Virus record (IMG/VR): IMGVR_UViG_3300045825_000261
Coordinates: 1-64,000 of that record
Reading direction: 5' to 3' (one strand)
Source of the DNA: a virus
Length of the DNA: 64,000 nt
Part shown: piece after piece, positions 448 through 60,457 of the stretch
How the letters are laid out: each line of letters begins with the position of its first letter
Numbering within the stretch: the stretch's first letter is position 1
The notes under the pieces: model-generated
What the model was told of the DNA's origin: nothing
The model's input: only the letters and a program-made list of their open reading frames with translations
Databases searched by the model: none
Position numbers and translations under genes: made by a program

Positions 448-462
448 TTCACAACTGACTTA
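448..462 (-). promoter_or_regulatory. Dispersed operator, weak copy
   Basis: Plus strand TTCA-CAAC-TGACTTA. The right half is perfect and the left half degenerate. It lies just upstream of the promoter for the gene starting at 392. Confidence 0.4.
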
Positions 463-475
463 TGTGGACTCTCGT

Positions 476-769
476 CTATTCGCCAACTAGCCTCCGCACA
501 GCCACCGTCTCCACGCGAAACTTCTCGTCACCTACAAGAAACGGTCTGCCGTTTAGAATCTCTAACGCCTCGTCTCGACTGGCGATTGCCATTTTTGCGA
601 CTTTCCCTCGCTCCACGTAGTCCGTCGTAACGTGAATTGACACAGCCACGACAGCGATAAGCAAACAGATTGAGGCAATAAGCAAACAGATTGAGGCAAT
701 AAGCTTTGCGACCTTCCTTGTGGTCACTTGGTGGCGAACTCTCCATGTAGCGATGTTATAAATAAGCAT
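476..769 (-). CDS. Small one-TM membrane protein, unknown function
   Basis: A 97-residue protein with a strong Shine-Dalgarno (AAGGAG) before the ATG at 769. A single hydrophobic stretch at residues ~23-45 predicts one membrane span with a short N-terminal tail, followed by a charged ~50-residue domain. The span contains the duplicated heptapeptide LIASICL, produced by a perfect 21-bp tandem repeat in the DNA, so the helix may have been lengthened by replication slippage. The first gene downstream is the RadC-like frame. I do not recognise the family. Confidence 0.6.
   Translation of the reverse strand: MLIYNIATWRVRHQVTTRKVAKLIASICLLIASICLLIAVVAVSIHVTTDYVERGKVAKMAIASRDEALEILNGRPFLVGDEKFRVETVAVRRLVGE
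660..701. repeat. 21-bp perfect tandem repeat (two copies)
   Basis: Positions 660-680 and 681-701 are identical (agcaaacagattgaggcaata split across the copies). The repeat is in frame and adds seven residues to the transmembrane segment of the gene at 476-769. Confidence 0.9.
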
Positions 770-778
770 GTCCGCTCC

Positions 779-1066
779 TTAGTCTTTAAACACAGGCGTT
801 GCGCCGATTACGTTGAAAATCAGGTGGTGCTTAATCATGCAGACGTTTTCCGACAAACTGCCTGACTTGAACGCTTGGCGAAAGGCGTGGTAGTGTCGGT
901 CGAAGAACGAGAGTGGCGTGTTATTTAGGTGCTCATCTTCGTTAAATAACTTGACCCATTCTTCTTTCGTCTTTCCGTAAGAGACATTTGCGTTTACCAA
1001 GCCATACGCGCTGCAAAGTTCCGCAAACTTGTCGTAGTGTTGGCGCGTTGTTTTCTTTGTTGTCAT
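779..1066 (-). CDS. Hypothetical protein
   Basis: A 95-residue protein starting at ATG 1066, behind AGAAGG. An upstream in-frame ATG at 1138 would place the start inside the operator and promoter, so I rejected it. The sequence is mixed alpha/beta without recognisable motifs (KTKEEWVKLF, SFFDRHYHAFRQAF). It begins its own transcription unit, preceded by an operator-bearing promoter and the conserved leader, with the membrane protein 476-769 downstream. Confidence 0.6.
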   Translation of the reverse strand: MTTKKTTRQHYDKFAELCSAYGLVNANVSYGKTKEEWVKLFNEDEHLNNTPLSFFDRHYHAFRQAFKSGSLSENVCMIKHHLIFNVIGATPVFKD

Positions 1067-1103
1067 GATGTTCTGCCTTCTCTTGTTGTTGTTCGATGGT
1101 TGA

Positions 1104-1109
1104 ATTATG
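1104..1109 (-). promoter_or_regulatory. Promoter-like -10 (CATAAT) with conserved leader
   Basis: Minus-strand CATAATTCAACCATC, the recurrent leader element, ~20 bases downstream of the operator-promoter at 1128-1148. Confidence 0.4.
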
Positions 1110-1127
1110 AAAGTAAAAGCGTGGCTA

Positions 1128-1148
1128 ATTATAGTCATTTGTGACTTA
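1128..1148 (-). promoter_or_regulatory. Promoter with embedded operator
   Basis: Minus strand: TTGTCA as a -35, then TAAGTCA-CAAA-TGACT leading straight into the -10 TATAAT (1128-1133). This is one of the best copies of the dispersed operator; a bound protein would cover the -10. It serves 779-1066. Confidence 0.75.
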
Positions 1149-1327
1149 TCCTGACAATATGCCTAGTTTGATTAACAGATTGGCTTCGCGTTGGTAATTT
1201 GACCTATATCGAGGTATCGCTGACACGCTGCCGGTCGAAGGCCAGTGTGTTTAAAGTGGTCGCTTTTGCCGCCAGTGTGGTAAAACTTAGCAGATCAGAG
1301 AAGATAAGCCCATGGCGAGCTCTTGAG

Positions 1328-1352
1328 AAAAAAGACGGGGCCGAAGCCCCGT
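1328..1352 (-). terminator. Rho-independent terminator
   Basis: Minus strand: GGGGC-TTCG-GCCCC stem-loop followed by six T. It ends transcripts coming from 1392-1724. The rest of 1139-1391 shows no convincing gene. Confidence 0.85.
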
Positions 1353-1391
1353 TAAAAACAACACAACTACAACAACATCCTGTATTTTACA

Positions 1392-1724
1392 CTACCAAGC
1401 GTCTCCAGCGACACTTGCTGGCTGGTGTGGCGCTATCGGTGTGGCGACCATCTTTGGCGTAGCTCGCTCAACCGGCACAACTTTCAGTAGCGACATTCCA
1501 ACGCGCTGTCTGCGACCTGACACAGGCGAAATCTCTTCGACATTACACGTCTTGGAATTCACCTTCTTTATTCTCACCGTGTAGCCAATTCCGTCATAAT
1601 CAAAAGTCGCTGTTCTGCCAACTGCCGGCCTTGTGTCGAGTCGCGCAGCCAGTAATGTTTCAATGTGCGCCTTCATTTTGTTCAGCGTTTCAGTTCCAAG
1701 TGAATTCAGTTTTGATAAATCCAT
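1392..1724 (-). CDS. Hypothetical protein
   Basis: A 110-residue basic protein. The start at 1724 follows GAGAGGATGAGAAA, a good ribosome binding site. Residues ~35-90 look like a small beta-barrel (TFDYDGIGYTVRIKK, CNVEEISPVSGRRQRV), as in short nucleic-acid-binding barrels, but I cannot name the family. A Pro/Ala-rich tail follows. Last gene before the terminator at 1328-1352. A half-operator (TGACTTG, 1742-1748) precedes it. Confidence 0.55.
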   Translation of the reverse strand: MDLSKLNSLGTETLNKMKAHIETLLAARLDTRPAVGRTATFDYDGIGYTVRIKKVNSKTCNVEEISPVSGRRQRVGMSLLKVVPVERATPKMVATPIAPHQPASVAGDAW

Positions 1725-1820
1725 TTTCTCATCCTCTCAAGTGACTTGTTTCAAAAATTGACGCTCTCCAAGTCTTCTCTCGCGACTGCGCTTGAGTCTT
1801 GTCCGAAAGAACGTCTATTT

Positions 1821-1841
1821 TTGAAGAGGCGTAAGCCTCTT
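1821..1841 (-). other. Intergenic hairpin without U tract
   Basis: GAAGAGGC-N4-GCCTCTTC lies eight bases after the stop of 1849-2643. On the minus strand it is followed by A residues, so it may protect the mRNA 3' end rather than terminate. Confidence 0.4.
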
Positions 1842-1848
1842 CGTTGCG

Positions 1849-2643
1849 CTATGACAAGCTCAATTCTGCCGTCATCTTCATCAAGATCAGCGAGTCGGGA
1901 TTTGGCACCATCTTGCCCTTTTCCTTCATTGTTACCTTCAGTGCCGGTAACAGCATCATCATTTGGTTCGCTTGTGACGCCGATGTGCCGGTGCTGTACT
2001 TAGTCAACAGGTCGGTTTGCAAATTCCCCTTCATGCCGCTAGTGATTTCGCCATCGCGAATCAATACAGCGAAGGTGCGTTGCAAAACTTCATTCAACTT
2101 GCCACCATTCGCCATGTAGCTGAACAGCATCGTTGCCTTTTGACCAACCTTGTCAGCCAGTTCGTCAATTGTCACGCAGAACGCATCCTGTGACGCTTTC
2201 AGGTCGTCGCCGCTCAGACCAGCATCAGCAACTTCCAGCAGCAAGAACTCGTCAGCCTTTGCACCAAGACGACTCAGCAGCACTTTGGATTCGTGACCGC
2301 GTTGGCGGCGAACACGTTCAGCTTTTGGCTCTTTAGGTTCTTTCGGTTCTTTTGCAACCTTTTCCTTCTTAGCTTTTTTCGCTTTCTTGGGCGCAGCGAC
2401 ATCTTCAGTCTTAGGCTTGTCGCCTTCAGTTATCTCTTCGTGGTTAGCTTCATCATCGGCGTACATCGCTTCAACAGCTTCCGCTTTCTCGATTTCAGCG
2501 GCAACCGCTTCAATTGCGGTCACTTCGCCCTCTTCGCCAGACGCTTCGATGATTTCATCATCAAACATTGAAGCCAAGATCGCTGCTTCGTCATCAGCAG
2601 AGAGGTTTGCAGAAACAGCGGAAGTCATATTAAATTGTGTCAT
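1849..2643 (-). CDS. Conserved-looking phage protein with acidic N-terminus and basic linker
   Basis: A 264-residue protein, start ATG 2643 behind AAGGAGATTCAAA. There are three sections: a very acidic N-terminal third (residues ~15-80), a lysine-rich linker with three KEP repeats (~85-115), and a C-terminal alpha-helical domain (~120-264). The charge pattern suggests an abundant protein with a disordered N-terminus that contacts nucleic acid or protein partners; this is inference. No enzymatic motif is visible. It appears to form its own transcription unit. Confidence 0.6.
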   Translation of the reverse strand: MTQFNMTSAVSANLSADDEAAILASMFDDEIIEASGEEGEVTAIEAVAAEIEKAEAVEAMYADDEANHEEITEGDKPKTEDVAAPKKAKKAKKEKVAKEPKEPKEPKAERVRRQRGHESKVLLSRLGAKADEFLLLEVADAGLSGDDLKASQDAFCVTIDELADKVGQKATMLFSYMANGGKLNEVLQRTFAVLIRDGEITSGMKGNLQTDLLTKYSTGTSASQANQMMMLLPALKVTMKEKGKMVPNPDSLILMKMTAELSLS

Positions 2644-2706
2644 TTTGAATCTCCTTAGTATGTGTAATTGTCGTTTTGTTGTATCGCTTCGTTTTGCGAT
2701 GATTGA

Positions 2707-2712
2707 ATTATG
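2707..2712 (-). promoter_or_regulatory. Promoter-like -10 (CATAAT) with conserved leader
   Basis: Minus-strand CATAATTCAATCATC, then an A-rich leader to the gene starting at 2643. Third copy of the leader element. Confidence 0.45.
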
Positions 2713-2806
2713 AGTGTTTAATCAAGGACTAAGAAGCAATCTACTTGGCAAACTTCTTATTTCCTTGCTGCTCTTTCTTCTCTCGTTGCGTTGTTGTGAT
2801 GGTTGA

Positions 2807-2812
2807 ATTCTA
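2807..2812 (-). promoter_or_regulatory. Promoter-like element with conserved leader, no ORF behind it
   Basis: Minus-strand TAGAATTCAACCATCACAACAACG directly after a hairpin. The ~95 bases before the next leader copy (2707) contain no ATG-initiated frame, so any product would be a short noncoding leader. Confidence 0.35.
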
Positions 2813-2843
2813 AAGAGTGGTCTTAGGACTTAAAACCACTCTT
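2813..2843 (-). terminator. Terminator-like hairpin
   Basis: AAGAGTGGT paired with ACCACTCTT, followed on the minus strand by TTTAG, just after the stop of 2850-3176. The run of T is short. Confidence 0.45.
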
Positions 2844-2849
2844 CGAGGA

Positions 2850-3176
2850 TTAAATACATTCCGCCAAGTTACTCAGTGGCTCACCGTCATATTTGCCGTA
2901 CAGTTCAAATTGACTGAAACCACTCCAAGACAGGTCTTGCATAAACTTAACAAGGCGCTGTTTGTTGATTGAATTAAAATCTGACGACTCCGCGATCAGG
3001 TAGGGTTTACGAAAGCTTGGCGCTACCTCTTCGGTAGCATAAAAGTCACCGTCGCCAAAATGCTTCATTACGCGACCTTGTTGATTGGGTACGGCAGCTT
3101 CGAGCCTGTAACCGATGATCCGGTCAGAAGTCTTAGTGCGCACAGTCTTTACATGGATAACCGCAATGCTGGTCAT
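2850..3176 (-). CDS. Hypothetical protein
   Basis: A 108-residue protein. I chose ATG 3176 (MTSIAVIHV) because AAAGGTAACAAA sits just before it; the longer frame to 3230 has no site. Mixed beta/alpha protein (IIGYRLEAAVPN, LVKFMQDLSWSGFSQFELYGKYDG). No family recognised. It is followed by a terminator-like hairpin, so it ends its unit. Confidence 0.55.
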   Translation of the reverse strand: MTSIAVIHVKTVRTKTSDRIIGYRLEAAVPNQQGRVMKHFGDGDFYATEEVAPSFRKPYLIAESSDFNSINKQRLVKFMQDLSWSGFSQFELYGKYDGEPLSNLAECI

Positions 3177-3384
3177 TTTGTTACCTTTCATCATGTTGTT
3201 TTCAAGGTGTTCATTCTCGCAACAAGACACAGGACAAAAACTGGCAAATGGTATTGCTCCTATATAGGTTCACCCATTGCAATTTGCTATATAAGAACGT
3301 GCGCGTGAGTAAACCACAAACGCAGGAGAAAGAAGCTTGCAGATATGGCGAAAAGTTGTTCGCCAACAATGTGAGGCGCAAGCC

Positions 3385-4010: not shown

Positions 4011-4177
4011 AATAATTCCTCCGGTAACTCACCTTTGTCTCGCTTTTCCATTTCATCACCTTTTAGCGCCAATGTTAAATCGTGAGCAGATACACGTTGC
4101 CCATCCAGAATTTGCCGCAACCCCGTCTCGACTTCACTCAGTAACGCGGCGGATTCGTCTTTGTCTTGTTTGGTCAC
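4007..4177 (-). CDS. Small hypothetical protein (56 aa)
   Basis: GTG start at 4177 with a strong AAGGAG site, one base after the stop of 4179-4586, and a GTGA overlap with the next gene. This tight nesting strongly supports it as a gene. Charged, helical protein (ESAALLSEVETGLRQILDG), about 6 kDa, with no transmembrane segment or cysteines. Function unknown. Confidence 0.75.
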   Translation of the reverse strand: MTKQDKDESAALLSEVETGLRQILDGQRVSAHDLTLALKGDEMEKRDKGELPEELL

Positions 4178-4178
4178 T

Positions 4179-5380: not shown

Positions 5381-5398
5381 CAAGTCAGTTGTGACTTA
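5381..5398 (-). promoter_or_regulatory. Operator-promoter for the kinase-like gene
   Basis: Minus strand TAAGTCA-CAAC-TGACTTG followed by TGTTAT as a -10. It overlaps the stop of 5385-5567. Confidence 0.65.
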
Positions 5399-7446: not shown

Positions 7447-7491
7447 AAAGTCATTACTGACTGAATGCGTAGTATAAATGCTCAAGTCAGG
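7447..7491 (-). promoter_or_regulatory. Promoter (CTGACT-N8-TATACT) with downstream operator
   Basis: Minus strand: CTGACT (7485-7490), eight bases, -10 TATACT (7471-7476), then operator AGTCA-GTAA-TGACT (7447-7464) over the likely start of transcription. Member of the CCTGAC/TATCAT promoter class. Confidence 0.65.
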
Positions 7492-8256: not shown

Positions 8257-8284
8257 TAAGTCATTACTGACTGTGATAATTATA
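8257..8284 (-). promoter_or_regulatory. Promoter with downstream operator
   Basis: Minus strand: TATAAT (8279-8284), then AGTCA-GTAA-TGACTTA (8257-8274) over the start of transcription. A leader with AATTCAAC leads to the gene starting at 8195. Confidence 0.65.
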
Positions 8285-10698: not shown

Positions 10699-10742
10699 AT
10701 GATACGGTACATAGTCAGGAATTGAAAGTCAGTTGTGACTTA
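10699..10742 (-). promoter_or_regulatory. CTGACT-N8-TATCAT promoter with upstream operator
   Basis: Minus strand: operator TAAGTCA-CAAC-TGACTTT (10725-10742), then CTGACT (10713-10718), eight bases, TATCAT (10699-10704). Drives 10083-10649 and the genes after it. Confidence 0.65.
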
Positions 10743-13561: not shown

Positions 13562-13604
13562 ATGATACTTTCACAAGTCAGGGGTATCAATCACCCATGA
13601 CTTA
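13562..13604 (-). promoter_or_regulatory. TTGATA/TATCAT promoter inside a wide operator
   Basis: Outer arms TAAGTCA and TGACTTG enclose GGGT/ACCC, a wider version of the operator (13575-13604). The -35 TTGATA and the -10 TATCAT (13562-13567) are 17 bases apart, with CTGACT eight bases from the -10. Drives the lipoprotein gene. Confidence 0.65.
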
Positions 13605-13801: not shown

Positions 13802-13822
13802 ATTATAGTCAGTTATGACTTA
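13802..13822 (-). promoter_or_regulatory. Operator-promoter
   Basis: Minus strand TAAGTCA-TAAC-TGACT running into TATAAT (13802-13807). Serves 13610-13771. Near-perfect copy of the consensus. Confidence 0.75.
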
Positions 13823-15994: not shown

Positions 15995-16016
15995 ATTTTA
16001 CGTCACTACTGACTTA
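15995..16016 (-). promoter_or_regulatory. Operator-promoter of the reductase gene
   Basis: Minus strand TAAGTCA-GTAG-TGACG followed by -10 TAAAAT (15995-16000). Confidence 0.65.
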
Positions 16017-17214: not shown

Positions 17215-17756
17215 ATATGACTCCACGTTTTTCCAATTTTGATTTTTCTCACCGTTTCGGCGCTCACTTCAAACATATTTGCAATCTTCAAGCAAGACAG
17301 TTTACCTTCACTTATCAGGGTTTTAATTCCACCAACAGCTTCTTCCGTTAGCTTTGCCATTCCGTTTCTTGAACCACTTGCGCCAACTTTCTTACCGTGC
17401 CTGTAGCGATCATCGGCATTGTCCTGGGCAGTTCCGTAGCGCAGGTTGGTGAGATAGTTGTTCGCGGTGTCGCCATCACCATGACAACCCATTCTGTCAC
17501 TATCCCCAATAAACGCTCGAAGAACTAGACGGTGAACTTTTTTAACTTTGGTAGATTTTCCAGCAACACTATCGCAAAGCGACACGACTCTGTAGCCATA
17601 GCTGTCACTTGTCTGTTTCAGAATGCGCTCCGGCACAAGTTGACGCTTGCCCTTTCCACCGACAACGTATCGCTCCAAACTCTTCACGTTTCCAAAATTC
17701 GACACTTGATAAACGCCTTCGTAATCTGGTATATCTTTCCAAATTTCCTCACTCAT
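17211..17756 (-). CDS. HNH homing endonuclease with NUMOD4 and C-terminal HTH
   Basis: A 181-residue protein. The NUMOD4 motif is IWKDIPDYEGVYQVSNFGNVKSL at the N-terminus. The HNH_3 core is HRLVLRAF...GCHGDGDTANNYLTNLRYGT (~85-120), and a helix-turn-helix at ~150-178 (CLKIANMFEVSAETVRKIKIG) would read the target. Such genes insert between essential phage genes, here next to RuvC-like and SbcC-side genes. No intron is evident. An operator overlaps its start codon. Confidence 0.9.
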   Translation of the reverse strand: MSEEIWKDIPDYEGVYQVSNFGNVKSLERYVVGGKGKRQLVPERILKQTSDSYGYRVVSLCDSVAGKSTKVKKVHRLVLRAFIGDSDRMGCHGDGDTANNYLTNLRYGTAQDNADDRYRHGKKVGASGSRNGMAKLTEEAVGGIKTLISEGKLSCLKIANMFEVSAETVRKIKIGKTWSHI

Positions 17757-17762
17757 GACTTA
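17745..17762 (-). promoter_or_regulatory. Operator over the start codon of the HNH gene
   Basis: Minus strand TAAGTCA-TGAG-TGAGG; the ATG of the HNH gene lies inside the site and the GGAGG Shine-Dalgarno abuts it. No -10 box is evident, so it could act as a roadblock. It closely matches the site at 50341-50358. Confidence 0.5.
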
Positions 17763-21720: not shown

Positions 21721-21753
21721 TCAGTCATAAGTGACTTATCAACCAAACTTATA
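21721..21753 (-). promoter_or_regulatory. Promoter with downstream operator
   Basis: Minus strand: -10 TATAAG (21748-21753), then TAAGTCA-CTTA-TGACTGA (21721-21738), which ends at the GGAGG of the gene starting at 21710. Controls the SbcD/SbcC unit. Confidence 0.6.
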
Positions 21754-21982: not shown

Positions 21983-22012
21983 ATGATAATCGAGTAAGTC
22001 AGGAGTGACTAT
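21983..22012 (-). promoter_or_regulatory. CTGACT-N8-TATCAT promoter with operator
   Basis: Minus strand ATAGTCA-CTCC-TGACTTA (21995-22012), eight bases after CTGACT, then -10 TATCAT (21983-21988). Here the operator itself supplies the CTGACT. Confidence 0.65.
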
Positions 22013-26054: not shown

Positions 26055-26076
26055 ATTATAGCTCACTACTGACTTA
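26055..26076 (-). promoter_or_regulatory. Operator-promoter of the SSB gene
   Basis: Minus strand GTAAGTCA-GTAG-TGAGC leading into TATAAT (26055-26060). The leader to the ATG at 25940 is ~110 bases, with no open frame in it. Confidence 0.7.
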
Positions 26077-26908: not shown

Positions 26909-26951
26909 AATGATACATATTCAAGTCAGGAGCATAAATCATTCCTGACTT
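26909..26951 (-). promoter_or_regulatory. CTGACT-N8-TATCAT promoter in a wide operator
   Basis: 9-bp perfect arms AAGTCAGGA/TCCTGACTT with an 11-base centre (26922-26951), then -10 TATCAT (26909-26914). Same build as 13562-13604. Drives 26093-26875. Confidence 0.65.
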
Positions 26952-26956
26952 ATCTC

Positions 26957-30442: not shown

Positions 30443-31081
30443 TTACGACCTCAATTCAGGAGCAGCAACGATACGACCAGCGATTTCCTGCGCTATGCAA
30501 AAATCAAGCAGAATCGGTAAAGTGATAGATACATGAGAAGCTGCGGCGCTGTCGCCCATTTCGGTTTTGGTTAAAAATAACTCTTTCAATTCGCGTTTAT
30601 CAAAGCCTCCGTCAATCAGACCGTCAATCGCTACAGACATAAAACGTGGCCGTGAATTCGCTAGAGCGTTGCGCCCCTCCTGAATACCTTCTTTTATCTT
30701 TTCAATCAGACCTTGATTACACAGATTGCGAGCCTGCTCTCGCGGCTTAATCTTCATCTTCGCAAGAATCAATTCATGCTCGACCGGAATCGAAAACTTC
30801 ACAACCTCAACGCCAGTCACGCGCTCTACCGGCTGAGTAATCTTCGCCTCAACTTTTGAGGCGAGCTCCTCAGCCGTCATACGACGAGCCATTTTTCGCT
30901 TTGCGTCGTCATGCCGCTTCAGCAAGTCAGTCACATTAACAAGCCCTCTTATTGACTCAAGCGTCTTCAGAGACTCGTCAGAGCACGCCTCAAAATGAGA
31001 GCATGTCTTGCAAATGTCAGAATCGTGCGAAAACACACTTGCTGCGCCATAACATCCCGGAACACCTTTGGCTTCACTCAC
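30443..31081 (-). CDS. Hypothetical protein with N-terminal cysteine cluster
   Basis: A 212-residue protein starting at GTG 31081, overlapping the sigma-like stop (GTGA) behind AAGGGGAATCAA. Cysteines at ~10 and in CKTCSHFEACS could bind a metal or an iron-sulphur cluster. The rest is helical with basic patches. Position between the sigma-like protein and the polymerase suggests a replication or transcription helper; no family recognised. Confidence 0.55.
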   Translation of the reverse strand: MSEAKGVPGCYGAASVFSHDSDICKTCSHFEACSDESLKTLESIRGLVNVTDLLKRHDDAKRKMARRMTAEELASKVEAKITQPVERVTGVEVVKFSIPVEHELILAKMKIKPREQARNLCNQGLIEKIKEGIQEGRNALANSRPRFMSVAIDGLIDGGFDKRELKELFLTKTEMGDSAAASHVSITLPILLDFCIAQEIAGRIVAAPELRS

Positions 31082-31737
31082 TTGATTCCCCTTATCGCAG
31101 ATTTTTTTAACTCAAACCTTGCCTTACTTACCGACGCTTCGCTGACTCCAAGCAAAACAAGAAAATTACAAATAAAACTCATATCAATTGTCTGTCTTGC
31201 TCTTTTTTGCTGTCCGGCTTGTCGAGTCAACCCAACATGAGCAACGCAAGCCTCAAATTCGCGCTCAAGCTCTTTGGGCGGGTCAATTAGCCAACGCGCA
31301 ATCAATGAAGCGAGAGGCGATAGGTTAGAAAGCATCCTACTCAACGACTGAGAAGTGGAAAGCTCACTCTCTGGCGTTTGACGAGAGCATGTTAAAATAT
31401 CAAAGTCATCAATATCTGTGCCTGTTGCGCTACTATACCGATGTGCCATTTCTTCAACAGACCTGACTCCATTATCGACTCGTTCCTCCTTTACCTTCTC
31501 GGCGATTTTGTTGATCTGGTTGTAGGCTGCGCGAGTGTAGTAACTTGAAAACTTATACCCACACTCTTCAGAAAACCCATCAAACGCCTTTACAAAAACA
31601 ACGCTTAACTCCTGCACAAGATCGTCATAGTCTACCGGCGCACCCATCGCAACAAGTCGCCCATAACCTTTTCTCGCCGCGTAATGCACGAGCCCCACAT
31701 GAGTGGTGTAGTATTTGTTTAACTCATTGCGGTCCAT
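31078..31737 (-). CDS. Sigma-factor-like protein (region 2)
   Basis: ~219 residues. The N-terminal third has the sigma-70 region 2 pattern: HVGLVHYAARKG, PVDYDDLVQELSVVFVKAFDGFSEECGYKFSSYYTRAAYNQI (read in parts), where DDLVQE and F-S-x-Y-x-x-x-A are typical of phage and ECF sigma factors. Region 4 is not clear, although the C-terminal ~40 residues could be a helix-turn-helix. It may direct host RNA polymerase to phage promoters. Start uncertain: ATG 31737 or 31770 (overlapping CobS). Confidence 0.65.
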   Translation of the reverse strand: MDRNELNKYYTTHVGLVHYAARKGYGRLVAMGAPVDYDDLVQELSVVFVKAFDGFSEECGYKFSSYYTRAAYNQINKIAEKVKEERVDNGVRSVEEMAHRYSSATGTDIDDFDILTCSRQTPESELSTSQSLSRMLSNLSPLASLIARWLIDPPKELEREFEACVAHVGLTRQAGQQKRARQTIDMSFICNFLVLLGVSEASVSKARFELKKSAIRGIK

Positions 31738-31741
31738 GAGA

Positions 31742-32929
31742 TTAACCAAATATTCTCTGAGCGAGGCCATCAATTACTTCGCGATCCACGCGAGATAGCT
31801 TATTGATAAACGATAGCGTCAGACCTTGACGGAACGAGCCACGCTTAACACCGATCTTGGCCGCGTAAATCAAGGTGCGTGGCGAAATAACGTCACTGAC
31901 CTTTGCGCCGTCATACGCATCACGAACAAGCCCTGCGAACTCAACCATCTTGTCAGCGTCCTCTTTAACCAGACCAACGTGATTTTGAAGAATTTGCGAC
32001 TCAGCCTTCTTGTTCATGTACTGCTTGTTCACAACCATGCCGAAGCGGTCGTAGTTGGCGCTGTTACCGATAACCGTACCTTGATACAGACCAGTTTCGT
32101 CACCGGAGCCATTTGTGTTACCTGTAGCAACGAAGCGAAAGTTCGGGTGAGGCTTGATAATGCGCATCGTTACAGGTGCTTCCTTGATGACCAGCGGCTT
32201 ACCTTCGAGCACGGCTTGATAGACCGAACTTACAGAAGGCAGCATGAAGTCATATTCATCAGCGCAGTACGTCCAGCCGTTGATCATCGCAAGAGGCAAT
32301 TGACCGTATTCAAATACAGTGTGACCATCTTTCACCGTCCACTGACCGACAATGTGGCTCTCTTCAGTGTTCACGGTATGCTGAACGCGAACGTATGGGC
32401 GACCAGTGCGTGCCGCTACCTGCTCATGCAGTTCTGATTTACCAGCGCCCTTGTGACCCCAGACGTAGCAAGGAATATTCAGTTCTTGCGCCAAGATCAC
32501 GTTTTTCAATTCGTCAATATCGAAGACGTAATTGTCAGATATGTCCGGTACAAAATCCTGACACGAGCTATTGACCAGAACGCCGATGGGTATCGCTTCG
32601 CCTTTTGCAGACATTGCAGACTTAACCTTGCCAAGACCAAAAACTTCGTGAAATGCCTTTTTAATGATCGAGTCTTTGGGCGCGACAGTTGCGGAGGTCG
32701 CCATTTCAAATTTCAAACCAGAGGCTTCAGCCGGTGCTGCCGCTGCGGCACGCTTTTCTGCACGCTTTTCTGCAAGCTTTGTCTGAGCAAATTCAGACAT
32801 GAGCGGAGCTTCTGGGAATTTAGCCACGTACTGCTCGGTGGTCATTTCGGGGTGATCCTTCTTCAAGTGCAGTTGAACTGAGTGAATTTGAGCTCCGCAA
32901 ATTGCGCAAGTGATTTTGTCTGTTGACAT
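31742..32929 (-). CDS. CobS-like AAA+ ATPase with N-terminal zinc finger
   Basis: A 395-residue protein. Residues 1-~60 have CAICGAQIHSVQLHLKKDHP, a C2H2-type finger. The AAA+ core has GHKGAGKSEL (Walker A), YCADEYDFM (Walker B) and NPNGSG-like sensor residues (ATGNTNGSG). In bacteria CobS works with CobT as the ATPase of cobaltochelatase, but related MoxR ATPases remodel other targets. The CobT-like gene lies directly upstream. Phage CobS homologues are known in several phages; their substrate is unsettled. Confidence 0.8.
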   Translation of the reverse strand: MSTDKITCAICGAQIHSVQLHLKKDHPEMTTEQYVAKFPEAPLMSEFAQTKLAEKRAEKRAAAAAPAEASGLKFEMATSATVAPKDSIIKKAFHEVFGLGKVKSAMSAKGEAIPIGVLVNSSCQDFVPDISDNYVFDIDELKNVILAQELNIPCYVWGHKGAGKSELHEQVAARTGRPYVRVQHTVNTEESHIVGQWTVKDGHTVFEYGQLPLAMINGWTYCADEYDFMLPSVSSVYQAVLEGKPLVIKEAPVTMRIIKPHPNFRFVATGNTNGSGDETGLYQGTVIGNSANYDRFGMVVNKQYMNKKAESQILQNHVGLVKEDADKMVEFAGLVRDAYDGAKVSDVISPRTLIYAAKIGVKRGSFRQGLTLSFINKLSRVDREVIDGLAQRIFG

Positions 32930-32980: not shown

Positions 32981-33031
32981 ATAATAATCATTTCTGTCAG
33001 GATAGACAAGTCACTTGTGACTTATCCTGAC
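32981..33031 (-). promoter_or_regulatory. CTGACA-N8-TATTAT promoter with nested operator
   Basis: Inner palindrome AAGTCA-CTTG-TGACTTA (33007-33024) inside outer arms GTCAGGATA and TATCCTGAC (32996-33031). -35 TTGTCT and -10 TATTAT (32981-32986) are 17 bases apart. Drives the cobS-like gene and the sigma-like gene. Confidence 0.7.
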
Positions 33032-35000: not shown

Positions 35001-35046
35001 TAAGTCACTATTGACTGAACAATTACATGATACTCAGACAGGTCAG
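35001..35046 (-). promoter_or_regulatory. CTGACC-N8-TATCAT promoter with downstream operator
   Basis: Minus strand: TTGCTC as -35, CTGACC (35041-35046), TATCAT (35027-35032), then operator TCAGTCA-ATAG-TGACTTA (35001-35018) over the start of transcription. Drives the cobT-like gene. Confidence 0.65.
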
Positions 35047-35121: not shown

Positions 35122-35307
35122 TTACTGGATTACCGCCGCCCTGCCACATGCGGTATTAACAATGGAAAAAACTTCGCCATTTTCATCTTTAACTATATGA
35201 ATCAAGGCTGAACCAATATCTATACTTGAAATTGTTTCGGTTGTCTCAACTATACGGCAATAATTTTCCAAACTAATCTCATCAACTGCGAGCTTTTCGT
35301 AACTCAT
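35122..35307 (-). CDS. Small hypothetical protein (61 aa)
   Basis: ATG 35307 behind AAGGAGATGTT. Acidic, alpha/beta protein (MSYEKLAVDEISLENYCRIVET, GSALIHIVKDENGEVFSIV). It is the first minus-strand gene left of the immunity region and has its own operator-promoter facing away from the repressor, the place of a Cro-like or early regulatory gene, though no HTH is visible. Confidence 0.55.
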   Translation of the reverse strand: MSYEKLAVDEISLENYCRIVETTETISSIDIGSALIHIVKDENGEVFSIVNTACGRAAVIQ

Positions 35308-35382: not shown

Positions 35383-35403
35383 ATTATAGTCATTTTTTAC
35401 TTA
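35383..35403 (-). promoter_or_regulatory. Leftward operator-promoter next to the repressor
   Basis: Minus strand TAAGTAA-AAAA-TGACT into TATAAT (35383-35388). One substitution in the left half. Drives 35122-35307. Confidence 0.6.
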
Positions 35404-35623: not shown

Positions 35624-36070
35624 ATGATGGTTGAAAAAACTGTTAATACGAAGCACTCTAATAACATTACAAAGAAAACAAGATCGGTAGCAGAGTATAT
35701 CTCTTGGCAAATTGCGCTTTGCGGAAAGCCGCAGTTGGACATAGCGGTAGAAGCCGGTTTCGAGAAACCGAACATCGTAACGATGATCAAGCAGGGCAAG
35801 ACAAAACTACCACTGGGCAAAATAGGCAAGTTCGCAAAGGCCATCGAGGTTGATCCAATGCACTTGCTCAAACTTTGCATGTCGGAATACTGGCCCGACA
35901 CATGGAATGAAATAGAAAGCATCTCAAAACAACCCGTACTTACCAACAACGAAATTAGCATTATTATGGAGATTCGCGAGTGTGGGGCGGGCAATCCCAA
36001 GATCAGCACAGATGAAGACAGAGAGCGTTTGGCTGTATTCGTAAGTACACTCAAAACAGACAATCAATAA
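35624..36070 (+). CDS. Xre-family repressor (candidate master regulator)
   Basis: 148 residues, one of only two plus-strand genes; AGGAG precedes two ATGs. Residues ~20-85 form an Xre helix-turn-helix: SVAEYISWQIA, PQLDIAVEAGF (helix 2), KPNIVTMIKQG (recognition helix), then helices IGKFAKAIEV and HLLKLCM. The C-terminal ~60 residues are probably for oligomerisation. No S24/LexA peptidase is present, so induction would not be by self-cleavage. The location between facing promoters with operators suggests it binds TAAGTCA-N4-TGACTTA across the genome; this is inferred. Confidence 0.75.
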   Translation: MMVEKTVNTKHSNNITKKTRSVAEYISWQIALCGKPQLDIAVEAGFEKPNIVTMIKQGKTKLPLGKIGKFAKAIEVDPMHLLKLCMSEYWPDTWNEIESISKQPVLTNNEISIIMEIRECGAGNPKISTDEDRERLAVFVSTLKTDNQ

Positions 36071-36129: not shown

Positions 36130-36150
36130 TAAGTCATAACTGACTATAAT
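36130..36150 (+). promoter_or_regulatory. Operator-promoter of the excisionase-like gene
   Basis: TAAGTCA-TAAC-TGACT running into TATAAT (36145-36150). This plus-strand copy shows the same layout as the minus-strand sites, so the orientation of operator and -10 is conserved. Confidence 0.8.
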
Positions 36151-36180: not shown

Positions 36181-36471
36181 ATGAAAACATTTGACGTTGC
36201 CGCATGTGCGGACTTCCTTAAAATTCACCGAACCACAGTCCTAAAGCTTGTGGCGTCTGGCGACCTTCCAGGCGCAAAGATAGGCCGCGCCTGGGTCTTT
36301 CTTGAAACAGACTTAATCGACTATATACGCAACGCCATTCGCTCACAGAGTCACGTCACAACTAAGCCACAAGTGACTGAAGCTATGCGAGCAGAGCCAA
36401 TAGGTCGTAAGCGAAAGGTTGCGCCAGACCTCTCTGCATACACGTCACCACATCTTTCGCGCCAAATCTGA
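36181..36471 (+). CDS. Excisionase-like MerR-type HTH protein
   Basis: A 96-residue protein. Residues 1-55 match the HTH_17/excisionase winged helix: VAACADFLKIHRTTVLKLVASGDLPGAKIGRAWVF (helices and wing). The C-terminal ~40 residues are basic. It overlaps the integrase tail-to-tail by 27 bases. Excisionases direct integrase toward excision; placing it under the repressor would keep it off in the lysogen and on after induction. It could also be a second regulator. Confidence 0.7.
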   Translation: MKTFDVAACADFLKIHRTTVLKLVASGDLPGAKIGRAWVFLETDLIDYIRNAIRSQSHVTTKPQVTEAMRAEPIGRKRKVAPDLSAYTSPHLSRQI

Positions 36472-37620
36472 CGCCCTAAGATTTGCATAGCGACCCAACA
36501 TTTGAGTGCTGCTGTGTCCGGTGATCTTCATAATCTCAAAGTCCGACATTTCCGTTCTCTCGAAAAGTCTACTGGTCGCCTCGTGGCGCATGTCGTGAAA
36601 GTTTAAATCAACACAGCCGGCCGCCTCAAAGATTCTGGTGAACTGGTGCGACAGTGCCGATGTAACTTTCTCATATCGCTCCTTTGGCAAAAGCATAGCG
36701 ATCTTCTTCTCAGCGAGCCATGGGAATAGATACCCACCGTCAAACGTAAACAACTCCATTCCTCTTCGCTTTGCAAGAACGTGCTCCGTATAGGTAATCA
36801 GGCTCGCGATGGCAACAGACGACAGCGGCACCTGTCTGCTTTTGCCATTTTTGGTTTTTTTAAGAAAGATTGTCGCATTCTCAATGTCCACCATGTCCAT
36901 TTCAATTGAATAGATTTCACTGAGCCGCATTGCTGATTCAACAGCAAGATCAAACACGCACTCGATAGCCGCTTGGTAATCAAGCTTAAACGCCCTTTCT
37001 CGGCCCTCTGGCTTAACCTTGTTCATCACCGCCCTAATTCGCTCTTCCTCACCAGACTCAAGGCGTCTGATGCGCCCTGCGCTGTGCTTAACCTCCAACG
37101 TGTCATCTTTAGCAATGACGGCCGCATCTGCTGGCGTATAGGCGGAATACCCCTTCGGCAACAGTCTGAGAGGGTTTGGAGCAAGCTCCGCAACACCCTG
37201 CGTTATTGCCCAGTCAAAACACCGAGCAAGCGCACCGACATTATGTCTGATTGTGGATGGGGACAAATTAGCCACGCGCTTCATCGAGCTTATCCATGAC
37301 TCGATCCACTTGTAGTTGACGAGTCTTATACTTACACCGCCAACCTTATTAAGCAAACCACTCAGGTAATCAGTATCGCAGGACGTGACGTGACGCTCGC
37401 GCATATATTCACGAATAAGATCGCCAATTGAAGAATACTTCTTCACATCGTCAAGAAGCTCTGGTGGCACGATACCGGCATCGAGCAACGACTCGACATG
37501 TTTGCCGTAAGCGATCGCAGCCTCTTCCGTATCGAATGTCCAATACCACGGCTTTTCTCTTACTGCTTTTCTTTTCACGGTCAACTCAAAGCGACCGCCT
37601 CTTGGCTTAATTGACGCCAT
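36445..37620 (-). CDS. int: Tyrosine-family phage integrase
   Basis: A 391-residue tyrosine recombinase. The N-terminus (~1-60) is an arm-binding-type domain, a SAM-like core-binding domain follows (~65-170), and the catalytic domain carries Arg in ESAMRLSEIY, Lys in KKTKNGKSRQVPL, HxxR in FHDMRHEATS, and GHSSTQMLGRY with the nucleophilic Tyr. ATG 37620. It reads away from the att-like region at 37688-37979 and is the only phage integrase complete here. Confidence 0.95.
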   Translation of the reverse strand: MASIKPRGGRFELTVKRKAVREKPWYWTFDTEEAAIAYGKHVESLLDAGIVPPELLDDVKKYSSIGDLIREYMRERHVTSCDTDYLSGLLNKVGGVSIRLVNYKWIESWISSMKRVANLSPSTIRHNVGALARCFDWAITQGVAELAPNPLRLLPKGYSAYTPADAAVIAKDDTLEVKHSAGRIRRLESGEEERIRAVMNKVKPEGRERAFKLDYQAAIECVFDLAVESAMRLSEIYSIEMDMVDIENATIFLKKTKNGKSRQVPLSSVAIASLITYTEHVLAKRRGMELFTFDGGYLFPWLAEKKIAMLLPKERYEKVTSALSHQFTRIFEAAGCVDLNFHDMRHEATSRLFERTEMSDFEIMKITGHSSTQMLGRYANLRASDLARKMW

Positions 37621-37905: not shown

Positions 37906-37979
37906 TGGAGGTGCGTCCCAGAGTCGAACTGGGCTAACGTGATTTGCAATCACGGGCATAACCGATTTGCTAACGCACC
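37906..37979 (-). tRNA. tRNA-Cys (GCA)
   Basis: 74 nt on the minus strand. Acceptor GGTGCGT/ACGCACC, D-arm GCA..TGC, anticodon arm CGTGA-TTGCAAA-TCACG with anticodon GCA, T-arm CCCAG-TTCGACT-CTGGG, discriminator T and encoded CCA. Structure is complete and cloverleaf-compatible. It differs at several stem pairs from E. coli tRNA-Cys, so it is not a simple duplicate. It may support decoding or protect the host if integration damages the host gene. Confidence 0.95.
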
Positions 37980-39904: not shown

Positions 39905-39946
39905 TAAGTCACGAGTGACTTTATCACAGAAAGAAAAAATGTTCAA
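39905..39946 (-). promoter_or_regulatory. Promoter with operator
   Basis: Minus strand TTGAAC (39941-39946), 15 bases, GATAAA (39920-39925) merging into AAAGTCA-CTCG-TGACTTA (39905-39922). Drives 39168-39878. Confidence 0.65.
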
Positions 39947-43035: not shown

Positions 43036-43056
43036 ATTATAGTCATTTGTGACTTA
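43036..43056 (-). promoter_or_regulatory. Operator-promoter
   Basis: Minus strand TAAGTCA-CAAA-TGACT running into TATAAT (43036-43041). Heads the WGR/ligase unit. The half-site spacing is the same as at 1128. Confidence 0.75.
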
Positions 43057-44344: not shown

Positions 44345-44396
44345 TCACTCAATTTTGACTTACATTATTTTCTCACAATTGATCAGGAGTGACTTA
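44345..44396 (-). promoter_or_regulatory. Double operator before the primase unit
   Basis: Two sites: 44379-44396 (TAAGTCA-CTCC-TGATC) and 44345-44362 (TAAGTCA-AAAT-TGAGT), with AATAAT between (44364-44369). The only clear two-operator promoter. The second covers the region of translation start. Confidence 0.6.
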
Positions 44397-45826: not shown

Positions 45827-46213
45827 CTAACCCCCTACAGACTGTGTGCGTTCTGCAAATTGAGGCTCAAATTCAGAAATATCATGCTTGAAAATTACAC
45901 GAGTTCTGCCGTCGCTCAAGACGGATACGGTGTATTTATCAGAATGCTTAATTGTCCCAGTGAACCTTTCACCGGAGCTAACCTTCTCAAACGCTACAGT
46001 AGCGTTAGACGCCTCTAAAGCCTTCAGAAACGCCTCGTGACCCTTTGGCACTATCTTCGTCTTAGACGAAGACTTTGGTGCGCGAATAGTGCCTGAAATT
46101 CTAGACTGCATGACGCCATCAACCATCTTAGACGGAACAGAATCAGCCTCTCTCATATTTAGTGCAAACGCTCGCTGTTCCTCGCGAACCTGTTGATCGA
46201 ACGGTTTATTCAT
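45827..46213 (-). CDS. Hfq-like Sm-fold protein
   Basis: A 128-residue protein. Residues ~57-117 align with Hfq: PKGHEAFLKALEASNATVAF (helix and strand 1), KVSSGERFTGTIKHSDKY (Sm1, with Gly and Asp as in Hfq) and VIFKHDISEFEP (Sm2, matching YKHAIST). The Lys-His pair that Hfq uses for RNA binding is kept, the N-terminal Gln is not. A ~55-residue basic N-terminus is extra. It may bind RNA or hexamerise; it is expressed with the helicase under its own operator. Confidence 0.75.
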   Translation of the reverse strand: MNKPFDQQVREEQRAFALNMREADSVPSKMVDGVMQSRISGTIRAPKSSSKTKIVPKGHEAFLKALEASNATVAFEKVSSGERFTGTIKHSDKYTVSVLSDGRTRVIFKHDISEFEPQFAERTQSVGG

Positions 46214-46253: not shown

Positions 46254-46274
46254 ATTATAGTCACTACTGACTTA
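46254..46274 (-). promoter_or_regulatory. Operator-promoter of the Hfq-like/helicase unit
   Basis: Minus strand TAAGTCA-GTAG-TGACT into TATAAT (46254-46259). Abuts the stop of the gene at 46275. Confidence 0.75.
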
Positions 46275-47934: not shown

Positions 47935-47956
47935 AGAATAGCTCAGTCGTGACTTA
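47935..47956 (-). promoter_or_regulatory. Operator-promoter of the PhoH-like gene
   Basis: Minus strand TAAGTCA-CGAC-TGAGC then -10 TATTCT (47935-47940). One side is less conserved. Confidence 0.6.
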
Positions 47957-48334: not shown

Positions 48335-48354
48335 AGTATATCAGTTATGACTTA
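48335..48354 (-). promoter_or_regulatory. Operator-promoter
   Basis: Minus strand TAAGTCA-TAAC-TGA running into TATACT (48335-48340). Drives 47978-48307. Confidence 0.65.
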
Positions 48355-50340: not shown

Positions 50341-50358
50341 TTCCTCACTCGTGACTTA
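50341..50358 (-). promoter_or_regulatory. Operator at the ribosome binding site of the holin-like gene
   Basis: Minus strand TAAGTCA-CGAG-TGAGG, where GAGG doubles as the Shine-Dalgarno. Found immediately after the endolysin stop. Matches the site at 17745-17762 closely. Confidence 0.55.
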
Positions 50359-53676: not shown

Positions 53677-53694
53677 CAAGTCAGTCGTGACTTA
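53677..53694 (-). promoter_or_regulatory. Operator before the fibre unit
   Basis: Minus strand TAAGTCA-CGAC-TGACTTG; a TAAGAT -10 candidate lies ~10 bases downstream. Abuts the spike gene stop at 53696. Confidence 0.6.
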
Positions 53695-58000: not shown

Positions 58001-59098
58001 CACGTCCCAAAACAAGGATGGTGGATACACTCTGGTAACGAACGCGATTCTTGCAGATGGAAGCAGCGGCACTAAGACTTGAACGTTGCCGGATGGGTCA
58101 TTTACGGGACTAACATTTGTCTTAAGAACCATTTTTCTACCACTACCGTCGCCATAAAACGATGTTGAGAAAAAGTTAAATGGCGTTGTCGGAGTAACAT
58201 CTACTCTTGCCCAAAGCCCCCATCCCGCGTACTTGTAAGGTGGGCCACCCGCGCTCACGGTAGCGGTTACTCTTAAAGCGTTTCCGTAAGAGCCGTCTGG
58301 TCTAGGTAAAATATCAAAGCCCATGAGCGTACTTGCGTCGCTAAAGTTAAATAGGCCAAGCGGCCCCTTTTCAGCGTTAGGGGGAACGCTGAATGTCAAT
58401 TCCATCGCGGATGACGCTTCTGCGGCGAGCATTGCGTTTCCAATTCTATTCGCAAGCGAACTGTATTTTGCGTCAGAGGTTGTTCTCCAAGCGTGGTACA
58501 GAGCAAGCATCAGATAATTGTCACCGTCATTCGCTGTTGATTGTGTCGTGGGTTGGTGAACCATCGGCCACCCATCCACAGCGCCCCACCGCTTTGATAG
58601 CGTTCCGTTTCTGTATGAGTAAAATAACTGCAACACCGTGCCTATCGCTACTGTCGAAAGTATAGGAACAAGCGTTGACATTGCGCCTGCTGAAAAGCTA
58701 TTCTCAATCGGTTTTGTTGTATCGACATAATTTGTGCTATCGCCTGACGATATTACTGCCATAAAATCTGGGCTTTTCATAACAGCGGCATTTACGCCGG
58801 TTGCAAAAGCCCCACGCACCCATGTCACATCACCACCAAACCAGCTTTGTGGAATAATTACTCGCTTACCTGTAGCGCCACCTGAAACAACAACAAACTC
58901 GGCGGGTAGGGAATTGAAGTTTAGAGCAGAAATTGACCCGCTCATGTTTGACTGCATCGGCTCACCGCCAACAAAGTCAGACTGCGCGTGAGACAACCCG
59001 TTTGACATTCGCGGATATGGCGCAACGTAGTGAGTGTGCAGGTCAGAGTTGAAACCTCTTGCGATTGCTGCTCCAGACAATGTGCTTAATGATGGCAT
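55007..59098 (-). CDS. Large tail spike with SGNH-hydrolase domain
   Basis: 1363 residues from ATG 59098. The frame stays open a further 42 codons upstream, but this region overlaps the preceding gene and has no ribosome binding site. Regions: a helical hairpin segment (~140-230), beta-rich stalk domains, an Ig-like segment (~595-690), an SGNH esterase (~895-1085) with GDSLTHG, WAGRNN and DWLHLN (Asp/His dyad), and a lectin-like beta-sandwich C-terminus (~1210-1363). Likely deacetylates host surface polysaccharide. Confidence 0.7.
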   Translation of the reverse strand: MPSLSTLSGAAIARGFNSDLHTHYVAPYPRMSNGLSHAQSDFVGGEPMQSNMSGSISALNFNSLPAEFVVVSGGATGKRVIIPQSWFGGDVTWVRGAFATGVNAAVMKSPDFMAVISSGDSTNYVDTTKPIENSFSAGAMSTLVPILSTVAIGTVLQLFYSYRNGTLSKRWGAVDGWPMVHQPTTQSTANDGDNYLMLALYHAWRTTSDAKYSSLANRIGNAMLAAEASSAMELTFSVPPNAEKGPLGLFNFSDASTLMGFDILPRPDGSYGNALRVTATVSAGGPPYKYAGWGLWARVDVTPTTPFNFFSTSFYGDGSGRKMVLKTNVSPVNDPSGNVQVLVPLLPSARIAFVTRVYPPSLFWDVSNVVYDADHIDHRYVSSYVNPGGVVSFLEIEDVANSRMVNEFSFNFNGSGTGYAGFVFNAASGTSLGSTNYNFDFYSSVAGSVVFSAKDSAGTTFACTKSVVIGWQSLSIKWVGVAPSFSQTTFAHPAVEFKVEPSNTMTTGKFIINRVRYDSIKTMASNVLTTLNGFQFEFQTNALGTPYEVWFGSVRVDQTVNDGTIADPNRYLGIPRWTYQWTKTQAGASRQEINSMLVTPSVIGVGSASIVGASASSGLAVQYNTTTPSVCYISGNFVVGLSAGVCEIVASQPGNADYFPAPTISKLVTVSQGAAMTTLPLSSSLLPSAGNAPVSLIRASDATVVDYSGALKSVKQNWPRFEGGRLTENHISTQDMTLPAWQKWQSGTGTPPIVTQSGTMSNGRPAYRVQMNAGAGTLASDFCQVIYPTTFSFGSSGTISFLAKSNTGLPQSVMISCAPYLYGAEVVIGAVEKEYFVTQKYSSNLMNFEISISKNSYNRNSQAVDILISECMYEDVTNLADTNPSIFVGDYRWDVNHLSGTKLACYGDSLTHGNGVSPLIPYGEQIARAHNWPSPDIRGVDGETSTQILNRLISDITLFNKHVIIWAGRNNYYDQTTILADIAAMVAAVGHTNYLVLSIINGDTMLYITPSTSEYIGGVGYSQIQSTNLQLSATYGARFVDVTTPLINAYNSSVPQDVIDFANGVPPSSLRYDWLHLNSAGYEVVANTVFAAGAAVLGWTNGAYVPVQTLPELLVEPPRTNHFLYSSAPMTQESLTLAVGTYTVWLSGFGTVAVAAGTATLSATGAATYSSSFTFDVTSAGTVIYTVSGLVNFVQAEDGPNVTSYIATGAVPKFRDGDMVSVTSVGTIGTIACTISLEWTPKTTTGAIECLALSKVDTANWLGITRENNTINMHKSIAGVLFSATVAMQIATGTKYKVCGSCGAAGVEIVCNGSSGTSNPDTSFAAISQTVEFGHSSVDSKKISNINLQPTQASLAEMIARTL

Positions 59099-59100
59099 GG

Positions 59101-60396
59101 CTATGCGTAAATTGATTGGTTTGCGAAAAACTCGAACTGAGCGTTTCCGGTCTTTATTACGGTGTACGAATAAACATCTGTTGCGTTGGAGCTTCCGGAT
59201 ACGGGAGCGATTCCGCCTGACCATTTTGGAGTAACTACCACCCCATCAACTTTATAGATGGTCGGGTAGAATGTCCCAGTTGTGTTTTTCACAATAAGAG
59301 TCACGGTTACTGACTGCCCTACTGCTAATTCCGCATCCAGCGCCTTTGTAGCACTTGCTCTAATGTTTAAGATGCAGTTTGCGGTTGCGGCGGTTCCGTA
59401 AAACAATATTCCTTGAGTGTCTATATCAAAGTCTATTGTCGCCGGCACAACTGTCGCTATCGTTGCTGCCTCAACCATTGTGTGAATTGATGCCACGCCA
59501 GTAAATGACGGATTTGCAGACGAAGCTTTTTTTAACGCAAGGTCACTTAGGTGATCTTGAACTGTTGCACCCACGAGTCCAGTTATTGCTGCGCTTTGTA
59601 TCGTCGTCGCCGTTAGTGTTGCTGCCGCCGCTGCGCTTGCTGCTGCTGCATTTTTTGAAGCGAGTGCGGCTGCGGCTGATGAGGCGGCGTTTGTCTCGGA
59701 CGTCAATACGCTTGAGGCTGATGATGCTGCCGCCGCTGCGCTTGCTGCTGCTGCCGTGGCTGAGTTTGCGGATGTTGTGATCGCTACCGTCATCGCGGCA
59801 GATGTCGCGCTTGCTGCCGCTGCTGTGGCTGAGTTTGCGGCGCTTGTAGCGGAGCTTGCCGCATTTGCTACCGAAGTGGACATGGACGTTGCTGAGTTTG
59901 CCGCCGTGGTTGCTGAGTTTGCTGCTGCCGTGGCTGAGTTTGCCGCTTCTGTTGCTTTGGCTGTTGCGGAAGTGACTATTGCAGCCCCCGCTCTTTGTGT
60001 TCCAGCTATCGTACCTACGGTAAACTGATTCCCCATGTAGTCCGACAAAGTTGTCGTGTCTGCCGTGGACGACAGATACGATTGCAGTTCTGTCAGCGTT
60101 ATTCCGTATCTGTATATTAAGTTCGCAAGGCTCGCCGCAATATCGGCCTGTAGCGTGCCGGTGAAGTTTCTAACTATCGCATATGGAACGCCAGTCTCGG
60201 CCGATTCAAGATACGGAGTTCTCAGCGTGATGCTTAAATCATTAGTGACAGACAAAACTTCGTAAAACTTCGAGCCGTCACGAGTCAATAAATCACCCAT
60301 CAACACTTGTGTTGACCACAGCGTACCGACGCCAGTTACCGCCGTACTTCCTGTCGTAAGTGTTGCCGTACCAACTCTATACCATTGATTAGCCAT
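59101..60396 (-). CDS. Tail fibre with anchor domain and Ala/Ser/Thr repeats
   Basis: A 431-residue fibre. Residues 1-~110 form a beta-rich anchor (WYRVGTATLTTGSTAVTGVG...), typical of phage fibre N-domains. Residues ~145-275 are an Ala/Ser/Thr/Asn coiled-coil shaft (ANSATAAANSATT), then a C-terminal beta head (FTGVASIHTMVEA). Probable adaptor or partner of the large spike gene downstream, two bases away. ATG 60396 after GAGGGCAAGCA. Confidence 0.65.
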   Translation of the reverse strand: MANQWYRVGTATLTTGSTAVTGVGTLWSTQVLMGDLLTRDGSKFYEVLSVTNDLSITLRTPYLESAETGVPYAIVRNFTGTLQADIAASLANLIYRYGITLTELQSYLSSTADTTTLSDYMGNQFTVGTIAGTQRAGAAIVTSATAKATEAANSATAAANSATTAANSATSMSTSVANAASSATSAANSATAAAASATSAAMTVAITTSANSATAAAASAAAAASSASSVLTSETNAASSAAAALASKNAAAASAAAAATLTATTIQSAAITGLVGATVQDHLSDLALKKASSANPSFTGVASIHTMVEAATIATVVPATIDFDIDTQGILFYGTAATANCILNIRASATKALDAELAVGQSVTVTLIVKNTTGTFYPTIYKVDGVVVTPKWSGGIAPVSGSSNATDVYSYTVIKTGNAQFEFFANQSIYA

Positions 60397-60435
60397 TGCT
60401 TGCCCTCATAATTCTTACATAGTAACACTCAGAGT

Positions 60436-60457
60436 TAAATATGTCATTTATGACTTA
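60436..60457 (-). promoter_or_regulatory. Operator-promoter of the fibre/spike unit
   Basis: Minus strand TAAGTCA-TAAA-TGACA then TATTTA (60436-60441). A single operator before the late fibre genes. Confidence 0.65.

Follow-up and report, generated by a model that had tools for sequence, protein, structure and literature searches.

Copies of the palindrome TAAGTCA-N4-TGACTTA recur across this phage genome, for the most part in intergenic DNA and built into promoters, and we consider it highly probable that they serve as operators of a single phage-encoded Xre-type repressor (35624-36070), which would bind the 18-bp palindromes as a dimer, block the host sigma-70 polymerase and hold most transcription units off in the lysogen. 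The analysed DNA, hereafter the window, is the stretch from base 1 to base 64,000 of a virus contig 85,174 bases long, which has a non-coding share of 8.8%. By gene content this is a siphophage-type genome, with terminase, portal, capsid and tail genes, an HTH_17/excisionase-like gene (plus strand, 36181-36471; PF12728 and excisionase PHROGs) and a tyrosine integrase (minus strand, 36445-37620; PF00589, E 1e-23), the presence of which identifies the phage as temperate. Replication and metabolism genes encode DNA polymerase III alpha, DnaB, ligase, ribonucleotide reductase, SbcCD and CobS/CobT-like proteins. Nearly all genes lie on the minus strand, the plus-strand exceptions being xre and the excisionase-like gene. 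An Hfq-like protein is encoded at 45827-46213, and a tRNA-Cys gene just upstream of the integrase (37906-37979) may mark the attachment site; the phage RHEph10 also has a tRNA-Cys. No ParA or RepA was recognised among the translated ORFs searched, which represent part of the ORFs of a possibly incomplete contig that does carry an integrase, and a megablast search of INPHARED phages with the window returned no match.

A dispersed palindrome enriched in intergenic DNA

Allowing up to three mismatches, we recovered 35 copies of the motif in the window, against a mean of 2.31 and a maximum of 10 over 100 shuffles. An initial sequence-only reading had estimated about 30 spread copies and proposed enrichment over shuffled sequence as the check on them; the observation is confirmed. 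Across the contig, 17, 36 and 44 copies were found at up to one, two and three mismatches, compared with 0, 0.45 and 4.3 expected from third-order Markov simulations. The near-constant four-base spacing between half-sites is equally clear, with 44 matches at spacing 4 and only 1-4 at each of spacings 1-3 and 5-7; spacings 0 and 8 also score, which we read as self-overlap of the motif.

Intergenic copies account for 34 of the 44 in the contig (binomial p = 1.3e-27) and for 26 of the 35 in the window alone. The placement of sites at unit boundaries and gene starts, as first proposed, describes most copies, but 10 copies in the contig, about 8-9 of them in the window, lie inside genes; these are probably chance matches, mostly of the two- to three-mismatch kind. 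The leftmost site originally listed, at 448 (~445-462), is weak, with four mismatches. The array extends beyond the window to the contig end, with sites at 78065, 79123, 81768 and 83795.

Promoter architecture of the candidate operators

Most intergenic copies fall within sigma-70-type promoters aimed at the next gene, and three placements can be distinguished. In class A, the downstream half merges into the -10 box, giving TGACTATAAT or TGACTTATAAT; in class B, it merges into the -35 box, giving TGACTTGA..-N17-TATAAT (TGACTTGAca-N17-TATAAT); and in class C, the site is positioned just past the -10. Classes A and B are the dominant placements. With the -10 at offset 13 or 14 and at least five of six matches, class A comprises 11 sites directed toward a gene and 2 directed away, while the -35-fused class B comprises 9 and 1, respectively. 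Under relaxed scoring, a -10 lies near 26 of the 34 intergenic sites in the direction of the gene and near 12 in the opposite direction, about half of these 12 being mirror readings of the palindrome. Altogether, some 20 of the 34 are fused to -10 or -35 boxes facing the next gene, and about 8 are without a clear -10, some of them on start codons. The same geometry recurs over ten genomes, where offsets 13, 14 and 36 stand out with 38, 31 and 14 of 399 oriented sites against a background frequency of 0.1%.

All window sites described here are oriented on the minus strand except 36130-36147, which lies on the plus strand in the promoter of the excisionase-like gene. This site and those at 1131-1148 (with -35 TTGTCA), 13805-13822, 43039-43056 and 46257-46274 are fused to the -10 as TGACTATAAT; the five such fusions listed in the sequence-only reading (1128, 13802, 36130, 43036 and 46254) are all real. 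Further -10 fusions occur at 15999-16016 (TAAAAT), ahead of the ribonucleotide reductase gene, and at 26059-26076 (TATAAT). Fusion to the -35 is seen at 5381-5398 (TGACTTGTTA, with a weak -10), 13587-13604 (TTGATA-N17-TATCAT), 33007-33024 (TTGTCT-N17-TATTAT, ahead of the CobS-like gene) and 53677-53694 (TTGCTT-N17-TACAAT, in the tail-fibre region), and two sites, 10725-10742 and 26935-26952, occupy the -35 region of promoters with -10 TATCAT. Sites lie just downstream of the -10 at 7447-7464 (TATACT) and 8257-8274 (TATAAT), and downstream of it at 35001-35018 (TATCAT, ahead of the CobT-like gene) and 47939-47956 (TATATT, ahead of the PhoH gene); that at 48337-48354 lies over the promoter TGGACA-N16-TATACT. 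The remaining candidates are intergenic (21995-22012 and 39905-39922), ahead of a tail-fibre gene (60440-60457), or associated with translation starts: 17745-17762, an operator-like sequence with three mismatches over the start codon 17754-17756; 21721-21738, adjoining a ribosome-binding site; 44345-44362, near a start codon, with a second, weak site (44379-44396, three mismatches) 34 bp from it; and 50341-50358, three mismatches, over a ribosome-binding site. The copies at 17745 and 50341 are possible roadblocks.

The palindrome is less symmetric than originally described: its upstream half is nearly perfect, but the downstream half is relaxed, with variants such as TGACTAT and TGACTTG, because it also serves as a promoter hexamer. 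As the sites share bases with standard sigma-70 boxes, repression would probably work by steric exclusion. Both early genes (ribonucleotide reductase, CobS, CobT and PhoH) and late ones (portal, tail and the major head protein, 79123/79076) have sites ahead of them. In phage lambda, direct repression is confined to early promoters, whereas here the late units also carry candidate operators.

Strong hairpins directly follow some of the sites, both on the contig (78065 and 73838) and in relatives (L087:28766 and L086:37677). Those of Acinetobacter elements are terminator-like and lie behind the major capsid and ribonucleotide reductase genes; with the hairpin immediately after the operator, promoter and upstream-transcript terminator seem to overlap.

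A small Xre protein as the candidate regulator

The candidate regulator (P0001) is a 148-aa Xre-type protein encoded by xre on the plus strand (35624-36070); every complete relative examined has a homologue at the corresponding locus. Its AlphaFold model comprises a five-helix HTH_3-like DNA-binding domain (helices spanning 22-89; pLDDT ~90 over residues 21-90), which Foldseek superposes on 2cro, 2r1j and 1pra with an rmsd of 1.7-2.0; the TMt is 0.83 for the P22 c2-operator complex and 0.80 for 434 Cro, and the 434 repressor domain was also matched. Most members of the family match PHROG transcriptional-regulator families. Unlike LexA/CI-type self-cleaving repressors, which carry a C-terminal S24 peptidase domain, the 148-aa protein has no recognisable S24 peptidase or self-cleavage domain; its C-terminal part consists of short helices, with no Pfam domain. 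Stl, a SaPI repressor relieved by protein binding, is among the Foldseek matches, but the superposition is poor (rmsd about 16), making it only a hint as to the mode of induction.

We regard this protein as very likely the regulator of the sites. Association, synteny, covariation between helix and operator, and promoter architecture together argue strongly for the original proposal that a single Xre silences most units, the repression itself being predicted from sequence. Its binding of the sites and its predicted maintenance of lysogeny are supported indirectly, through association and covariation. In the mechanism that we propose, an Xre dimer would bind each 18-bp palindrome, the symmetry of which is consistent with such binding, and bound Xre would block the host sigma-70 RNA polymerase because the palindrome coincides in part with the -10, -35 or start point of the promoter, so that nearly all promoter-bearing units, early and late, would be shut off directly in the lysogen.

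The divergent small gene

Divergent from xre, a minus-strand gene (35122-35307) encodes a 61-aa product that, in its window copy, matched neither Pfam nor PHROG families. A small gene of 60-71 aa is divergent from xre in every relative examined, and the family shares the pattern ..LDLG[ST].LIH.G.HP..G.I.LVST..G.A.. (alignment A2). In six of six genomes read (the window, L010, L012, L014, L017 and L018), its promoter contains a class A site whose upstream half is damaged: in the window, this is TAAGTAAAAAATGACTATAAT (35386-35403, minus strand; upstream half TAAGTAA, fused to TATAAT), and in the others TAAGCTA... or TAAGTAA.... Such damage suggests that the small gene is repressed less tightly and would escape early. 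The xre promoter likewise has half or degenerate sites only. With degenerate sites alone at both promoters, the repressor should stay expressed, and the 61-aa gene would be one of the earliest to be derepressed as repressor levels drop. An antirepressor role for this gene is a guess.

Co-occurrence and synteny among relatives

Scanning IMG/VR with the class A site alone recovered 64 stretches, and 20 contigs were tested for Xre. A homologue was present in all nine tested contigs of at least 69 kb and in none of the eleven of 16-37 kb, sizes at which fragments or solitary chance matches would be likely. In the other direction, each of the ten tested contigs that were found through Xre alone contains exact AGTCA-N4-TGACT, in 7-26 copies (control 0-6); the mirrored-motif control is contaminated where the site is TCAGTCA-N4-TGACTGA, and de novo palindrome ranking was used for such genomes. 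Among palindromes with 5-bp arms, AGTCA-N4-TGACT ranks first, solely or jointly, in 9 of 10 AGTCA-type genomes; in the remaining one, from Acinetobacter, it falls one copy below first rank.

The gene order integrase - Xre - small gene - CobT - CobS is shared by IMG/VR, Acinetobacter, Klebsiella and E. coli elements, while in Rhizobium and Methylobacterium elements a RepC gene replaces the integrase in an otherwise identical order. The window conforms to the arrangement of the SSU5/RHEph10/Acinetobacter phage-plasmid group: integrase (or RepC) - Xre - small gene - CobT - CobS - (sigma) - PolIII alpha. Relatives of this Xre occur in 647 plasmid records. In the E. coli LF82 phage-plasmid Cyrano, the homologue CYRAN_45 is annotated as a putative repressor and is transcribed 10x over the prophage background in the lysogen (PMC9928086).

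The GTDB scan for prophages with Xre detected no integrated copy of this phage and six chromosomal Xre relatives that have a nearly identical recognition helix without an operator array, the latter counting against the operator model. Three of them (L092, L093 and L095), with the same helix and no arrays, are perhaps a separate module; in L092 and L093, the gene lies between those for a ~400-aa protein and a uracil-DNA-glycosylase-like protein. A Thauera plasmid with an Xre relative was rejected as a family member, being neither a phage nor a carrier of an AGTCA-type palindrome.

Covariation of operator and recognition helix

Proteins with the helix PNxxxM.K (M54 in the window) pair with AGTCA-N4-TGACT genomes. 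In a Methylobacterium element retrieved afterwards as a test, there are 11 exact copies in 50 kb, and RHEph10, also with this helix, has an extended version of the AGTCA core; a first impression of this phage as motif-poor was overturned, as its 20-bp sites (GTMARTCAATATTGAYTTAC type) extend the same core. Enterobacterial elements with an SLIKxG helix hold no copies of AGTCA-N4-TGACT and instead carry TAAGT-type and separate AACAA-N-TTGTT palindromes, two families that compete for the operator role. Both families, as AAACAA-N-TTGTTT and GGTAAGTACTTACC, are seen in Klebsiella pJN2-26 (L089/L090) and in Cyrano (L097/L149), with GGTAAGTACTTACC in the Xre promoter; in pJN2-26, one TAAGT-type palindrome lies 36 bp before the Xre gene. 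The AAACAA-N-TTGTTT palindrome of enterobacterial SSU5-like phage-plasmids may be the site of a second dispersed regulator. Among Acinetobacter baumannii elements, CP043453/CP059543 (helix QNMVSFIV) have no AGTCA sites, and CP043453 carries 11 copies of TAAG-N2-CTTA, all 11 intergenic and several merging with TATAAT in the class A manner. A change of recognition helix goes with a change of operator, even between two A. baumannii phage-plasmids. In the tree, altered-helix proteins are restricted to about two lineages, so the covariation rests on few independent changes.

Alternative explanations for the repeats

The sites might instead bind a host regulator, such as a global protein of the CRP/FNR or GntR type, that the phage exploits. 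A symmetric 18-bp site with a 4-bp centre would suit several host families. However, one core motif is common to Acinetobacter and Methylobacterium elements, and within the single species A. baumannii two phage-plasmids differ in palindrome in step with the helix of the phage Xre, which argues against a host protein and leaves this explanation improbable. We give marginally less weight to the idea that the palindromes act not as promoter operators but as stoperators or roadblocks to elongation: the sites at 17745, 21721, 44345 and 50341 on ribosome-binding sites or start codons, together with the hairpins after some sites, fit such action, which may hold for a minority of sites, but elongation is not at issue at the roughly 20 of 34 fused to boxes facing the next gene.

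The phage also encodes a sigma-70 region 2 protein (31078-31773), conserved in relatives, which raises the idea that the motif is a promoter element for this sigma-like factor, or an activator site. Yet the neighbouring hexamers are of the common TTGACA/TATAAT kind, and relative to them the site is found in at least three positions (-10 fused, -35 fused and downstream), a variability at odds with a fixed promoter element, which makes this reading very improbable. Where transcribed, the inverted repeat would fold into a tetraloop hairpin (7-bp stem, 4-base loop), but sites of the fused classes lie upstream of the expected start point and would be untranscribed from their own promoters, so that RNA hairpins acting on mRNA are the least credible explanation of all.

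Relation to known dispersed-operator systems

Many copies of one operator-like site stand at dispersed transcription units in this phage, as in systems with distributed operators. The sequence-only reading knew of no described match, a view that does not survive in principle, since SPbeta MrpR/SPBRE, P1 C1 and L5 all pair one repressor with many dispersed sites. P1 C1 recognises many asymmetric 17-bp operators scattered over the ~95-kb P1 phage-plasmid genome, whereas the sites described here are symmetric and embedded in -10/-35 boxes; C1 is not known to be a relative of this Xre. P22 operators are 18-bp palindromes with a 4-bp centre, and the P22 c2 and 434 repressors share the HTH fold, but their operators are clustered at two early promoters, unlike the dispersed candidate sites.

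In SPbeta, the prophage master repressor MrpR (YopR) holds lysogeny by binding SPBRE elements in many intergenic and promoter regions; it has a tyrosine-recombinase fold and recognises a 15-bp motif, with ~10 sites detected by ChAP-seq (PMC10516654). A repeated element at many intergenic or promoter regions for one phage repressor is thus common to both, but the candidate regulator here is Xre/P22 c2-like, with an 18-bp palindrome and ~34 intergenic sites, most of them fused to promoter boxes. The immunity repressor of L5-type mycobacteriophages has up to ~30 genome-wide sites, with motif and repressor diverging together; its stoperators are asymmetric 13-bp sequences, oriented with transcription and mostly off promoters, that block elongation (PMC6550527, PMC9283540). 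The likeness to stoperators drawn in the sequence-only reading holds only in part, since the sites here are symmetric and mostly lie in promoters, although those at start codons, a minority, might serve as roadblocks. A further match is with SSU5-like and Acinetobacter phage-plasmids and RHEph10-like phages, which share the gene order around Xre, a homologous Xre and distributed palindromes, those of enterobacterial members and one Acinetobacter lineage being other than the AGTCA type. No description of an operator array for this group was found in the open-licence literature searched. Distributed operators are already known; the novelty here is a form that is symmetric, fused to promoters and shared throughout a family.

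Implications for the phage-plasmid family

More broadly, we propose tentatively, as plausible but slightly less likely than not, that temperate phages and phage-plasmids of ~70-116 kb in Alpha- and Gammaproteobacteria (probably also Betaproteobacteria) hold lysogeny promoter by promoter, early and late, through one small non-cleaving Xre; that joint change of operator and helix makes immunity groups within host species; and that the divergent small gene with its weakened operator is the trigger or antirepressor. Relatives of the repressor and its scattered sites over a wide phage and phage-plasmid family suggest how this little-studied group keeps its genes silent in bacteria; clinical bacteria very commonly carry SSU5-like and Acinetobacter phage-plasmids. 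The analysis names a candidate repressor, its operators, a likely trigger gene and the putative specificity-setting residues; together these predict immunity groups and the co-resident elements that would exclude one another. The family further provides a natural set of variants in which to study how specificity shifts jointly in a repressor and its dozens of sites, as well as an example of late structural promoters that are apparently under direct repression.
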